NCBI GenBank assembly: GCA_016215115.1 | Contig: JACRLN010000024.1 | Span: forward strand, 1 to 35,336 | Direction: 5' to 3' | DNA length: 35,336 nucleotides | From: Nitrospirota bacterium | GTDB taxonomy: Bacteria > Nitrospirota > Thermodesulfovibrionia > UBA6902 | Shown here: in pieces, positions 11,602 to 30,267 of the stretch | How positions within the stretch are numbered: the stretch's first letter is position 1 | How the letters are laid out: each line of letters starts with the position of its first letter | Notes under the pieces: model-generated | Told to the model about the DNA's origin: nothing | The model's input: only the letters and a program-made list of their open reading frames with translations | Databases searched by the model: none | Position numbers and translations under genes: made by a program

Positions 11602-11690
11602 TTTATTGTTGTGCTCTCTAAAATTTTAAACTTCACTATAAGCAAGTCGATAGAAAAGGCTGGTGAAGAATTTCTATACGACACCTTAAA

Positions 11691-11725
11691 AGCTGATAGC
11701 TGACAGCTTATAGCTTAGAGCTAAT
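11691..11725. repeat. Short tandem array, 7-bp period (AGCTGAT type)
   Basis: Five consecutive units of the form AGCTNAN (AGCTGAT, AGCTGAC, AGCTTAT, AGCTTAG, AGCTAAT). It occupies the middle of the gap between the prmC stop and the murA start. Confidence 0.75.
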
Positions 11726-11773: not shown

Positions 11774-12700
11774 TTATACTAAATTATGCGCAGATATTAT
11801 TCTTTCTATCCCTGCATAATCCTTTTGAACAACTATATCTTTATATCCCGAACATTCAAACATCTGAGCCACTGTATCAGCCTGACTTATTCCGATTTCA
11901 AGCATAAGTATACCGCTATCTTTAAGAAACTGACGTGCAATCGGTATTATCGCCCTGTAAAAATCAAGTCCGTCTGTGCCACCGTCGAGAGCGTTTAGCG
12001 GTTCCCAGTCTTTGATTTCAGGCTGGAGATTTCTAATGTCGTCAGATTTTATGTAAGGCGGATTGGAGATGATAAGGTCGAAAGAAAAGAGTTTTGAGTT
12101 AAGGGTTAAGAGTTTGGTAAAAGGTTCAAAAAGATTCCCTTGTAAAAATGTAACATTGTTTATTCCGTTCAAATCAGCATTCCGTCTTGCATATCTGAGC
12201 ACAATTTCTGAGATATCGCTGCCATAAACATGTGCATCGGGGTATTCCTGTGCAAGCGAAAGGGCCAGGCAACCACTGCCGGTGCATAAATCCAAAATTC
12301 TCTGTGAGGAATTTAGTTTTGAGTTTTGTGTTTTAAGTTTTGAGTTTTCCTGACTGCTGACTGCTGACCGCTGACCGCTGACCGCTTTTATTGCATATTC
12401 CGCCATCAACTCCGTCTCGGGACGGGGAATTAAGACACCCTTGCCAACTTGCAATTTCAATCCCAGAAAATCTACATGCCCGAGTATGTACTGTAACGGT
12501 TCACGGCTGGTTCGTCTGCTGACGACACTTTCAAGCAACGACATCTGTTTATCGGTAAGTTCAGGGTCGTCCCTGTAAATGTCGATTACGTTCATATTAA
12601 GAGCATTTCGCAGAATTATTTCGGCTTCTTTGTCTGTAAATTCGATGCCTGCAGTGCTGAGGAGTTTTGAGATGGCTTGCAGTTTATATTTGACTTTCAT
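11774..12700 (-). CDS. prmC: Release factor glutamine N5-methyltransferase with array-encoded insertions
   Basis: Methylates the GGQ glutamine of release factors, here probably Gln234 of the adjacent prfA product. 308 residues: an N-terminal helical domain, RPETE at 93-97, the SAM-binding LDLCTGSGC at 136-144 and the catalytic NPPY at 213-216. Two stretches look foreign. Residues about 107-133 and 197-205 are translations of 7-bp tandem arrays and read as heptad peptides (NSKLKTQ then NSKLNSS). They fall between the two domains and in the loop before NPPY. The core motifs remain intact. No ribosome site is visible before the ATG, and an array starts 10 bp upstream. Confidence 0.92.
   Translation of the reverse strand: MKVKYKLQAISKLLSTAGIEFTDKEAEIILRNALNMNVIDIYRDDPELTDKQMSLLESVVSRRTSREPLQYILGHVDFLGLKLQVGKGVLIPRPETELMAEYAIKAVSGQRSAVSSQENSKLKTQNSKLNSSQRILDLCTGSGCLALSLAQEYPDAHVYGSDISEIVLRYARRNADLNGINNVTFLQGNLFEPFTKLLTLNSKLFSFDLIISNPPYIKSDDIRNLQPEIKDWEPLNALDGGTDGLDFYRAIIPIARQFLKDSGILMLEIGISQADTVAQMFECSGYKDIVVQKDYAGIERIISAHNLV
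12089..12116. repeat. Short tandem array inside prmC, 7-bp period (GAGTTTT type)
   Basis: Four 7-bp units (GAGTTTT, GAGTTAA, GGGTTAA, GAGTTTG) lie within the prmC coding region and encode roughly LLTLNSKLF just before the NPPY loop. Confidence 0.7.
12314..12385. repeat. Double short tandem array inside prmC, 7-bp period
   Basis: Five units of the GAGTTTT type (12314-12348) followed after 2 bp by five of the TGACTGC/TGACCGC type (12351-12385). Both keep a 7-bp period and are read through without a stop in the prmC frame. Confidence 0.8.
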
Positions 12701-12710
12701 GATTTTGAAA

Positions 12711-12776
12711 AGCTGTCAGCGTTCAGCTATCAGCGTTCAGCTTTTTTGAATCTTCTGCTGATAGCTGACTGCTGTC
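12711..12776. repeat. Short tandem arrays between prfA and prmC, 7-bp period
   Basis: Five units AGCTGTC/AGCGTTC (12711-12745), then TGCTGAT, AGCTGAC, TGCTGTC (12756-12776). They fill almost the whole 77-bp gap from the prfA stop to the prmC start, leaving no visible ribosome site for prmC. Confidence 0.75.
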
Positions 12777-20391: not shown

Positions 20392-20419
20392 AAGGCCCCC
20401 TGCAATAGAGTAAAGTTAT

Positions 20420-20472
20420 TAAGTTTTGAATTTTGAGTTTTAAATTTTGAGTTGGGAGTTAGGAGTTCGGAG
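20420..20472. repeat. Short tandem array, 7-bp period (GAGTTTT type)
   Basis: Seven units from AAGTTTT, GAATTTT, GAGTTTT through GAGTTGG, GAGTTAG, GAGTTCG, lying between gatC and panD. A weaker 8-bp-period stretch (AAGTTAAT, AAATTGAG, AAGTCAAG) follows to about 20513. Confidence 0.75.
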
Positions 20473-20537
20473 CAAGTCCGGAAGTTAATAAATTGAGAAG
20501 TCAAGAAATTTAGATTCTCTATCTTCTTGTTTTTTTT

Positions 20538-20571
20538 CTGAATTCTGAATTCTGACTTCTGACTTCTTTTT
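20538..20571. repeat. Short tandem array, 7-bp period (TTCTGAA type)
   Basis: Units TTCTGAA, TTCTGAA, TTCTGAC, TTCTGAC ending within a few bases of the gatC stop codon. Confidence 0.75.
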
Positions 20572-20572
20572 G

Positions 20573-23252: not shown

Positions 23253-25085
23253 TTACTCAACTGTTACGCTTTTTGCGAGATTCCTTGGTTGATCAACATC
23301 ACATTTTCTCAGCACAGCCATATGATATGCCAGCAAATGGAGCGGGATGGAAAAAATAATTGGGGTAAGGTAGTAGTTTGTCTTTGGCAAGGATAAAATA
23401 TGTGATGCACGTGAAAGCACTTTTGTATTTCCTTCTGTTGCAACTGCTATCAGCTTTCCGCCCCTGCTTTTTACTTCTTCCATATTTGAAAGTATTTTTT
23501 CCAGAACATTGTCATCGGGCGCCAGTGCAAGCACAGGCATATTATTATCAATAAGAGCTATGGGCCCGTGCTTCATCTCTCCCGCCGGATATCCTTCGGC
23601 ATGAATGTATGAAATCTCTTTTAATTTCAGGGCCCCTTCAAGGGCTATCGGGTAATTTATTCCTCTGCCGAGATAAAGAAAATCTCTAACACGATAAAAC
23701 TGCTTTGCTATTTTCAGAACAGCGTTGTTCAACCGGAGGGACTGCTCTACCTTTTCAGGAAGATAGAGAAGTTCATTAAACAACTCTCTTATTTCGTGAG
23801 CCCCGAGTTTCCCTTTTGACTTTGCAAGTGCAATTGAGAAGAGGTAAAGTCCTGTGAGCTGGGTAGTAAAGGCCTTTGTAGAGGCAACCCCAATCTCAGG
23901 GCCTGAGTGTGTAAAAAACACACTGTCAGCATCTCTTGAAGATGTGCTGCCGACAACATTGCAAATACTGAGAACCTTTGCGCCAAGTTTCTGTGATTCC
24001 CTCTGGGCTGCAAGGGTATCTGCTGTTTCACCCGACTGCGTAATAACAATAACAAGACTGCCCCTGGGAATAAGCGGCTTCCTGTATCTGAATTCAGATG
24101 CAATATCAACTTCACAGGGCACTCTTGCCATTTCCTCAATCATATATTTTCCCACAAGCGCGGAATGCCAGGATGTACCGCAGGCCACAAGGAATATCTT
24201 GTTCAGTTTCTTCAGATCACTTTCCTTCATGGAAAACTCTTCAAGGTTTACTTCGGCTTTTTCGAGTGAGAATCTGCCCCGGATTGTATCTGCAATGGCT
24301 CTTGGCTGCTCGTGTATCTCCTTGAGCATGAAATGCCTGTAACCGCCTTTCTCCGCCATAGCAGGGCTCCAGGTAATCTTTGTAATTTCTTTTGTTACCG
24401 GCTTCCTGTTACTTATTTTGGAAATTGAAACCCCTTTATGTGTAATTGATGCCATTTCACCGTTATCAAGAATTATCACATCCTTTGTATATTTAAGGAA
24501 TGCCGGTATGTCTGATGCTATAAAAAATTCTCCCTTGCCAATCCCTATAACAAGAGGGCTGTCTTTTTTTACAGCCAATATTTTCTGCGGTTCTTTTTCA
24601 TTTATAATCCCGACTGCATAGGCTCCTTCCACGTGTTTTAAAGCTTCCCGCGTTGCATCCTCGAAATTAAGTCCATTTTGTGAATAGCTGTGGATAAGAT
24701 GACAGATTACCTCTGTATCAGTTTCCGAAGTAAAAACATGTCCTTTTTTCTTCAGTTCTTCTTTCAGTTCAAAGTAGTTCTCAATAATTCCGTTATGCAC
24801 TAAAACTATTCCGCCGGCTCTGTGAGGATGTGCATTTTCTTCAGAGGGCTTTCCATGCGTGGCCCACCTTGTATGCCCCAACCCCGCAATGCTCTTAAGT
24901 TTTTCTCCCTTTATGGAAGCCTCTAAATCTTTTATCTTCCCGGCACAGCGCCTGACTCCTATCCTGTTATCCTGAAAAAATGCTATACCGGCAGAATCAT
25001 ATCCTCTGTATTCCAACCGTTTTAGTCCATTAATAAGGATTGGGATAGCGTTTTGTTTTCCTATGTAACCAATTATTCCACACAT
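23253..25085 (-). CDS. glmS: Glutamine-fructose-6-phosphate aminotransferase (isomerizing)
   Basis: Makes glucosamine 6-phosphate, the entry to UDP-GlcNAc for cell wall and LPS. 610 residues, the standard length. The N-terminal glutaminase has the catalytic Cys2 (MCGIIGYIG) and LEYRGYDSAG, followed by two SIS domains (VACGTSWHS, TQSGETADT) and the closing DQPRNLAKSVTVE. It follows glmU on the same strand, so two steps of the pathway lie together. A 7-bp array sits 5 bp upstream of the ATG and no ribosome site is seen. Confidence 0.97.
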   Translation of the reverse strand: MCGIIGYIGKQNAIPILINGLKRLEYRGYDSAGIAFFQDNRIGVRRCAGKIKDLEASIKGEKLKSIAGLGHTRWATHGKPSEENAHPHRAGGIVLVHNGIIENYFELKEELKKKGHVFTSETDTEVICHLIHSYSQNGLNFEDATREALKHVEGAYAVGIINEKEPQKILAVKKDSPLVIGIGKGEFFIASDIPAFLKYTKDVIILDNGEMASITHKGVSISKISNRKPVTKEITKITWSPAMAEKGGYRHFMLKEIHEQPRAIADTIRGRFSLEKAEVNLEEFSMKESDLKKLNKIFLVACGTSWHSALVGKYMIEEMARVPCEVDIASEFRYRKPLIPRGSLVIVITQSGETADTLAAQRESQKLGAKVLSICNVVGSTSSRDADSVFFTHSGPEIGVASTKAFTTQLTGLYLFSIALAKSKGKLGAHEIRELFNELLYLPEKVEQSLRLNNAVLKIAKQFYRVRDFLYLGRGINYPIALEGALKLKEISYIHAEGYPAGEMKHGPIALIDNNMPVLALAPDDNVLEKILSNMEEVKSRGGKLIAVATEGNTKVLSRASHILSLPKTNYYLTPIIFSIPLHLLAYHMAVLRKCDVDQPRNLAKSVTVE

Positions 25086-25090
25086 AAAAA

Positions 25091-25122
25091 AGTAATCAGT
25101 AATCAGTAGTCAGTAGTCAGTA
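25091..25122. repeat. Short tandem array upstream of glmS, 7-bp period (AGTAATC type)
   Basis: Units AGTAATC, AGTAATC, AGTAGTC, AGTAGTC and a partial unit, starting 5 bp before the glmS start. A less regular related stretch on the other strand (AGTAAGT, AGCAGAT, AGTAGCT) lies at about 25149-25169. Confidence 0.75.
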
Positions 25123-25175
25123 GAAAAAGAAACAAGTCTTTTCTCCTAAGCTACTATCTGCTACTTACTTTCTTT

Positions 25176-28979: not shown

Positions 28980-30248
28980 ATGCTACAGGAAGTTGAATCA
29001 ATATCGCCAACAACAAGAAGGCTTAAAATCAATATCCCTTCAGATGTTATCAAATCTGAGACTGACAATGCCTACAATAAAATAAGGGCCACTACAAAAA
29101 TAGCGGGTTTCAGGCCCGGCAAGGCACCTCAGGCTATTCTTGAAAAAAAGTTCGGCAAAAACGTTGAGGCAGAGGTTATTGAAAAGATTGTCCCTGAATA
29201 CTATTTCAAAGCTATCCAGGAAGCAAAATTAGAACCCGTCAACTATCCGAATATTGAGAACAAGCTGGAACTGGTGTCGGGACAGCCGCTTTCGTTTACT
29301 TTGACAATCGAAGTTAAACCGGAGATAGAGGACCTTAAATATGAAGGTATTGTATTAAAGGAAAAAACTATTATAGTAGAAGATGATGAAATAGAAAAAA
29401 CTATTAAATTAATGCAGGAAAGCAAGGCATTATATTCGGTTACTGAAGAGGCTTTAAAAGAAGATGATATGGCAATTATCAATACTGACGCTTATGTTGG
29501 TGATAAATTACACGAAGAACTGTCTTACAAGGATTATCCTTTACTTTTAAGTCCCGAGGCCATGCCTAAAGAGTTTATTGATGCACTGCTTGGGAAGAAA
29601 AAAGGAGAAGCCGCCGAAGTAAAAATAAACTTCGAAGATGATCATCCGAATAAAACCCTGGCGGGAAAAGAGATTTTATTTAAAGTGCACATAACAGAAG
29701 CCAAGAAAAAAAATATCCCGCCGTTAGATGATGAGTTTGCAAAGGAATCTAACTGCAGCAACCTTGAGGAACTGAAAAACAAAATACGGGATAATCTTGT
29801 CAATATGAAAAAAAGCCAGACGAATTTAGAATACAAGAAAGAAATTCTAAACGATCTTATCAAAAGACACAGCTTTGATGTTCCTGATTCCATGGTACAG
29901 GGAGAAATTGAGTCCATTATTTATAAAGCAAAACAGGATGCCGAACGGAAAAACGAAGCCATAAAGTCTGACGAAGAATTAAGAAGAGACTTTGAGGCAA
30001 CAGCAAAGGACAACGTCAAAAGCGTGATCCTCCTGGAAGCCATTGGTAAAAAGGAAAAAATTGAAGCAACTGAAGATGATGTTAAAAAAGCAATTGCTGA
30101 GACAGCGATCCGGAATAACCTTAAGCCAGAAGAGGTCACAAAGCTTTATGCAGCGAGAGAAGGTTCAATGGATGCGCTCAGGAGCCGGTTGTTTGCTGAT
30201 AAAGTTTTGGAGTTTATATTGGAGAAGGCAACGATTCAAAGCTCATAG
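28980..30248 (+). CDS. tig: Trigger factor
   Basis: Ribosome-bound chaperone for new proteins. 422 residues. The ribosome-docking signature GFRPGKAP is at 43-50. The central FKBP-like domain (about 150-240) has diverged, so prolyl isomerase activity is uncertain. The C-terminal helical arms follow. GAGAGG precedes the ATG by 5 bp. The last two serines and the TAG stop lie in a 7-bp tandem array. First gene of tig-clpP-clpX. Confidence 0.96.
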   Translation: MLQEVESISPTTRRLKINIPSDVIKSETDNAYNKIRATTKIAGFRPGKAPQAILEKKFGKNVEAEVIEKIVPEYYFKAIQEAKLEPVNYPNIENKLELVSGQPLSFTLTIEVKPEIEDLKYEGIVLKEKTIIVEDDEIEKTIKLMQESKALYSVTEEALKEDDMAIINTDAYVGDKLHEELSYKDYPLLLSPEAMPKEFIDALLGKKKGEAAEVKINFEDDHPNKTLAGKEILFKVHITEAKKKNIPPLDDEFAKESNCSNLEELKNKIRDNLVNMKKSQTNLEYKKEILNDLIKRHSFDVPDSMVQGEIESIIYKAKQDAERKNEAIKSDEELRRDFEATAKDNVKSVILLEAIGKKEKIEATEDDVKKAIAETAIRNNLKPEEVTKLYAAREGSMDALRSRLFADKVLEFILEKATIQSS

Positions 30249-30267
30249 CTGACAGCTAAGAGCCAAA
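30240..30267. repeat. Short tandem array at the tig stop, 7-bp period
   Basis: Units AGCTCAT, AGCTGAC, AGCTAAG, AGCCAAA. The first contains the TAG that ends tig (30246-30248 spans its edge), and the last runs into the AAGGAG ribosome site of clpP. Confidence 0.7.

Follow-up and report, generated by a model that had tools for sequence, protein, structure and literature searches.

INTRODUCTION

Heptanucleotide elements inside genes and repeat DNA inserted in frame are both known already. In Geobacter metallireducens, the heptanucleotide elements GGACCGG (four units, 49 copies) and MTYCTGA (five units) also occur inside genes (PMC2700814); they are described as putative regulatory elements, and the available part of that account makes no mention of in-frame insertion into conserved enzymes, of one site being filled again in several species or of genome-specific turnover. 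Here, we analyze a stretch of 35,336 nucleotides (the window; contig JACRLN010000024.1 of assembly GCA_016215115.1) from a Nitrospirota bacterium of the lineage Thermodesulfovibrionia; UBA6902, in which prmC, the gene for a release-factor methyltransferase, carries heptamer arrays that read in frame as part of the enzyme. By eye, MTYCTGA of G. metallireducens (PMC2700814) resembles the TTCTGAC family of this genome.

The Rickettsia palindromic elements (RPEs) are alike in that dispersed repeat DNA lies in frame inside unrelated metabolic genes and is compatible with protein structure (PMC10969869). RPEs are palindromes of ~150 bp with a conserved peptide, whereas the arrays described here change in sequence and form no stable RNA structure (z of ~+1): they share with RPEs the in-frame insertion into conserved protein-coding genes but lack a palindrome able to form a stable stem. 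The idea that the inserts act as RNA hairpins was considered and rejected (fold z of +0.7 to +1.2 for three inserts, compared to mononucleotide shuffles). The TAACTGA repeats of Beggiatoaceae and cyanobacteria also have a stop-free orientation readable as a heptapeptide, and 24 sets are located in or overlap open reading frames (ORFs); however, they consist of one heptamer, are mostly intergenic upstream of start codons and, if in genes, are found mostly at protein ends (PMC4679880), whereas the arrays of our genome use many heptamers and occupy internal loops of core enzymes. The short tandemly repeated repetitive (STRR) sequences of cyanobacteria and the GGGGAYT/GGGAATC heptamers of Nostoc and Xanthomonas are dispersed arrays as well, with 32% intragenic in Anabaena, but they are G-rich, quadruplex forming, and mostly intergenic (PMC4692102). 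Like other heptanucleotide tandem elements, the arrays described here have exact 7-bp units and several dispersed copies per genome, but the mainly intergenic location of STRR and TAACTGA repeats is not shared. What appears to be new is the recurrent and genome-specific insertion of heptamers at shared sites of core enzymes, for which we found no earlier description; a literature search for in-frame heptamer insertions in housekeeping genes of Nitrospirota, with most subscription journals outside its reach, gave nothing closer than the works cited.

RESULTS AND DISCUSSION

Two heptamer patches are read in frame in prmC

The product of prmC matches TIGR03534, a family model of equivalog level, with 271.2 bits (cut-off of 199.1; E value of 7.9e-81). 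Tandem Repeats Finder (TRF) reported (AGTTTTG)x4.9 at positions 12315-12348 and (CTGACCG)x5.3 at 12350-12386 of the window; on the coding strand, (CGGTCAG)n is followed directly by (ACTCAAA)n, translated as ...KAVSGQRSAVSSQENSKLKTQNSKLNSS.... This site 1 thus consists of two abutting arrays, A and B, which read AVSGQRSAVSSQ plus NSKLKTQNSKL at residues ~104-130. Site 2 (residues 194-205) lies just before the NPPY strand (FDLIISNPPY); it is weak by itself and was not reported by TRF at a score of 40, but its best lag-7 match of 15/21 was reached by none of 200 shuffles. An earlier note, made from the DNA sequence without database searches, had proposed two in-frame patches that read as heptad peptides, and TRF as well as the lag-7 matches bear this out. 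Its first patch, drawn as one array at residues 107-133, does contain heptamer DNA but turned out to be two different arrays, and its second patch (residues 197-205) stands above the shuffles with slightly different borders. The reasoning that three 7-mers equal seven codons and give a peptide repeat in any open frame is correct, and the catalytic motifs DLCTGSG and NPPY are intact, as had been stated. The coordinates are given in Table 1.

Table 1. Features of the prmC region and genes for exported proteins with N-terminal arrays (positions refer to the window unless preceded by a locus number)
Feature	Position	Strand	Evidence
prmC, release-factor N5-glutamine methyltransferase, 308 aa	11774-12700	minus	ORF, TIGR03534, structure alignment
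Site 1, array A, coding strand (CGGTCAG)n, read as AVSGQRSAVSSQ	12350-12391	minus	TRF, lag-7 match 20/21 at site 1
Site 1, array B, coding strand (ACTCAAA)n, read as NSKLKTQNSKLN	12311-12349	minus	TRF
ACTAAATTCCTCAC, remnant of the junction with array C, the third array (of GTCACTC type), common with mnmA and mqnE inserts	12300-12314	minus	Six-gene alignment
Site 2, array of ~4 degenerate heptamers, giving KLLTLNSKLFS	~12087-12120	minus	Lag-7 match 15/21
S-adenosylmethionine (SAM)-binding motif DLCTGSG, intact	12272-12292	minus	Translation; alignment columns invariant or nearly so
Catalytic motif NPPY, intact	12053-12064	minus	Translation; alignment columns invariant
Intergenic array between prfA and prmC, AGCTATCAGCGTTC type, family different from prmC arrays, bounded by AAAAGCTG...CAGCTTTTTT	12711-12744	none	TRF, sequence
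Intergenic array downstream of prmC, AGCTGAT type	11687-11725	none	Sequence
LolA	L034:633-1406
TolB	L031:16651-17946
YbgF	L031:18583-19629
ApbE	L035:16454-17692
Exported protein	L040:4198-5097
LptE-like (G004)	L155:19187-19720

Compared to known structures, the repeat is an insertion. Residues 107-132 (26 residues) correspond to residues 106-110 (~5 residues) of Escherichia coli PrmC, and the enzyme of Thermotoga maritima has similarly few; the linker between the N-terminal and the SAM domain has ~21 extra residues. In an AlphaFold2 model, the mean predicted local distance difference test (pLDDT) score was 88.5, with most of the core above 90 and only residues 115-130 below 50. Helix 94-118 of the model runs into array A, which lengthens the helix before the linker. 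Superposition on E. coli PrmC (2b3t_A) aligned 275 of 276 residues at 1.6 A (Z of 33.9) and left the extra residues unmatched; since the core superposes nearly completely, the extra residues are purely additional. Hence, the structural check suggested in the earlier note came out as expected: the repeat segment 115-130 has low confidence and the extra residues lie outside the superposed core. Its view of an array insertion into a gene that stayed functional agrees with the insertion relative to homologues and with the intact motifs, and the intact family suggests that the enzyme still works. At site 2, the spacing from motif to motif is 61 amino acids in 12 homologues that lack a period-7 signal at this place and 68 amino acids in 11 homologues, of which 10 have the signal and 1 has not. 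The step is exactly +7 amino acids, that is, 21 bp or three heptamers.

The same sites are filled with different repeats in relatives

As a single-copy marker, PrmC was chosen for a comparison across relatives, and 37 homologues from genus, family, order, and class were collected (the species are not independent samples). With a threshold of at least 15 of 21 lag-7 matches, 26 of the 37 homologues had period-7 DNA at site 1 and 10 had it at site 2, but none had it in the remainder of the gene, and the control lags 4-6 and 8-10 gave 0 to 2; at site 2 of relatives, the match rose up to 21/21. Linker length ranged from 18 to 52 codons and the sequence was different in each; the prmC arrays read SGQRSAV/NSKLKTQ here, VRSQKSEVRSEE in G007, KSYELRV in G043, RTQNAEYRTQNSELRTQ in G013, and SCQLSVV in G027 (G numbers denote genomes). 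All full-length matches in relatives were recorded as a single open frame without stops. Contrary to the expectation that the insertion should be absent in relatives, most of them carry arrays of their own at these sites, although the linker residues are, as foreseen, not conserved. These alignments point toward recurrent occupancy of the prmC sites rather than one private insertion.

Other dispersed repeats were observed at the same two sites (L004, L020, L015, L087, L028), reading NPPKSPFSKGG, PPLVRGGEGG, HPELVSGSKNKEMLKRVQHDSH, and SHPSPLVGEGKGEGE; some species have HPELVSGS...MLKRVQHD there, and the homologue of G002 has the palindrome GGGGCGATTCATGAATCGCCCC.

Recurrence at one site is also seen in GuaA. 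Most genus members are 85-89% identical in this protein, and at one position before VVWMSHGD, 9 of 10 genus members and several other genera carry an array of varying content. In most other species, just a few residues occupy this position, and the array is absent in G001, G010, G013, G040, and others. On a tree from which the insert was left out, at least six gains or losses are needed to explain where it occurs, and four of them are forced by well-supported branches. HemC has a like pattern of same-site arrays with differing content at two sites. Among the length differences, multiples of 7 residues showed no enrichment at guaA and at site 1 of prmC and a slight excess at hemC.

On the coding strand, the long inserts of prmC, guaA, and hemC across relatives run from purine rich to pyrimidine rich in 43 of 45 decided cases. 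This gradient may reflect selection on the protein, with a helix-like start and a strand-like end. The idea that an inverted purine/pyrimidine arrangement holds generally was dropped, since intergenic composites were too few and the purine classifier was poor.

Composites are shared between genes of one genome

Six unrelated genes (prmC, mnmA, mqnE, mqnC, guaA, and hemC) contain the same composite of [TCAGCGG or TCAGAAG]n, a short junction, and [AAAACTC]x5-type units, and the B block of five AAAACTC-type units aligns in all six without an indel. The next junction, ACTAAATTC, is also common to prmC, mnmA, and mqnE, and the array copies of prmC and mnmA are 93% identical over 73 bp. In the other species of the genus, the exact A-B junction was absent. 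Across the prmC, guaA, and hemC sites, heptamer sharing within the same genome was 0.185 within the genus and 0.160 overall, compared to 0.107 and 0.047, respectively, for the same site in other species; the observed value was reached in 0 of 2,000 label permutations. Array content tracks the genome more than the gene.

prmC is only one case of a phenomenon that is genome-wide. In 779 kb of stretches of this genome (G000), which together with whole-genome searches are the basis of the genome statistics, 82 lag-7 arrays were counted, compared to none in first-order Markov shuffles. Lag 7 was dominant over lags 5 to 11, with 30 arrays at lag 8, 11 at lag 9, and 0 to 2 at lags 5, 6, 10, and 11; some of the period-8 and period-9 repeats may be overlaps of degenerate heptamer arrays. 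Of the 82 arrays, 43 lie within ORFs of at least 150 amino acids (our definition of genic), and the same holds for 28 of the 30 sequences in the genome that match the prmC arrays best. The AAAACTC family has 10 in-gene and no intergenic arrays (Fisher, P = 0.001). Family models were checked for ~30 proteins. The array bearers that exceed the curated cut-off of one or more NCBIfam models are MnmA, MqnC, MqnE, PurL, PurF, GuaA, PriA, cobyrinate synthase, HemC, citramalate synthase (CimA), MetG, and AroC; by Pfam, further bearers are ArgS, an MqnA/D-like menaquinone enzyme, and an oxidoreductase of the nitrogenase type. PurL (L039:6149-10318; 1,390 amino acids; TIGR01735, 1,668 bits) has four separate arrays at residues ~97, 169, 832, and 1108. 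By extrapolation, one 2.8-Mb genome would have ~150 in-gene arrays. Several members of the genus, as well as G040, have a similar array density; G052 has a lower one, and no arrays were seen in the sequence sampled from G058, G019, and G010.

How the arrays may arise

In our model, which we consider probable, the patches of prmC go back to dispersed heptamer-array repeats, which were inserted in frame by copying into permissive loops and are turned over in each genome. Seven is coprime to 3, and therefore, one and the same cyclic heptapeptide results whichever frame of a strand is read, as remarked in equivalent form by MacGregor for TAACTGA (PMC4679880). The gene-resident units AAAACTC, CGGTCAG, and AGTCAGA are stop free in the genic orientation, and their reverse complements contain stops. 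Being stop free in every frame, an array in this orientation could enter a gene at any phase, provided that its total length keeps the frame, and purifying selection would keep those arrays that land in permissive loops or linkers; in prmC, these would be the linker that joins the N-terminal domain to the SAM domain and the loop preceding the NPPY strand. Across species, such sites are filled again and again while the content would turn over, arrays of one genome becoming alike. The copies may owe their spread to templated copying or to gene conversion from one array to another; we presume that they are nearly neutral and that, judging from the intact protein families, their hosts function.

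Several observations do not fit this model easily. Arrays at the same site of different species are more similar (0.107) than arrays at unrelated sites (0.066), and therefore, some arrays were inherited and then rewritten; some of the recurrence at a site may come from ancestral arrays that drifted in sequence. Random insertion followed by selection does not predict the near-absence of the prmC array family from intergenic DNA: either arrays in genes are passed on from one gene to the next, or those between genes are overwritten more quickly or are under selection for something else, e.g., transcription termination. Neither a transposase nor a terminal inverted repeat was found, although no systematic search was made for either. 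Furthermore, the genomes compared were treated as drafts, mostly metagenome assembled.

The inserts could also have originated in place, by slippage of the polymerase with a preference for 7 nucleotides that expanded the linker DNA, with no copying between loci. Heptamer simple sequence repeats are over-represented in many bacteria, for which slippage over the polymerase footprint was proposed (PMC4692102); the gain of exactly three units at prmC site 2 and the often degenerate array edges point in the same direction. However, slippage does not account for six unrelated genes that agree in their A-B order and in having five B units, with another junction common to three of these genes, nor for the clustering of array sequences by genome across genes, and the length differences between homologues at site 1 and guaA show no excess of multiples of 7 residues; we therefore regard an origin in place as rather unlikely. 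Far less likely still is a phase-variable contingency locus in which one 7-bp unit gained or lost switches release-factor methylation. A single unit does shift the frame of prmC, and heptanucleotide arrays are reported to drive phase variation of hmw1A in Haemophilus (PMC8262952), but the units here are imperfect, with at most 3 to 4 identical in a row, the full-length PrmC matches of relatives are all uninterrupted, lengths between species at site 1 and guaA do not go in steps of 7 amino acids, and the arrays are in metabolic and tRNA-charging genes, not in surface genes.

It is equally hard to believe that the inserts are conserved functional segments, for example, contacts to the release factor, that only seem repetitive. 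Such a role would be in line with the filling of the same two sites in most relatives, with the purine-to-pyrimidine run of the long inserts in three genes, and with the helix extended by array A. However, the residues are not conserved, some relatives have the unrelated repeats NPPKSPFSKGG, PPLVRGGEGG, or HPELVSGS...LKRVQHD or nothing at all, and residues 115-130 are disordered in the model. The least credible explanation is misassembly of repeats into genes of metagenome bins: the draft state of the genomes would allow for it, but the arrays are found in separately named assemblies from different studies, always in frame and at the same prmC, guaA, and hemC sites, and also in the 3.17-Mb chromosome record CP070632 (L101).

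Copying of dispersed arrays into permissive loops would provide a route by which, throughout a genome, repeat DNA of a noncoding type is turned into protein segments of essential enzymes, and the picture of dispersed repeats that keep adding disposable peptide segments to working enzymes is, on the alignments presented, probably largely right. The homologous sites in dozens of species amount to a natural experiment on insertion tolerance, in which loops of PrmC, GuaA, HemC, and others accept 7 to 40 residues. That the same peptide results in every frame if the unit length is not divisible by 3 may partly explain the 7-bp units, and the question why such units are frequent in bacteria and how they spread becomes testable by strain comparison. 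A more far-reaching idea, to which we give somewhat less than even chances, is a class of tandem repeats that lives and spreads mainly inside genes: A-B-C composites, stop free in all frames of one strand, would move between housekeeping genes of a genome, swap at the same loops, and be recruited N-terminally as signal peptides and prepilin leaders, with intergenic DNA holding different heptamer families.

Heptamer arrays between genes and at protein N termini

Intergenic arrays mostly belong to other families, often AGCTNNN, and are bounded by AAAAGCTG...CAGCTTTT in a terminator-like manner; examples are the two arrays flanking prmC (Table 1), positions 30236-30263 of the window, and L131:17295-17374. 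Further intergenic heptamer arrays of the window are located at 20419-20476, 20527-20572, and 25084-25128, and the pair at 20.4-20.6 kb (~50 bp apart) resembles the two families used within genes.

N-terminal arrays of exported proteins (Table 1) read as the hydrophobic cores of signal peptides, e.g., LCLLVTCHLSLVTIVHAA and LTAFCLLLTAYCLLSLSGC, and are more hydrophobic than internal arrays (Mann-Whitney, P = 0.0009). In type IV pilin-like proteins (L124:6287-7006, L128:19366-19998, and L132:11276-11956), the leader peptides just before GFTL[IV]E are made of heptamer arrays.
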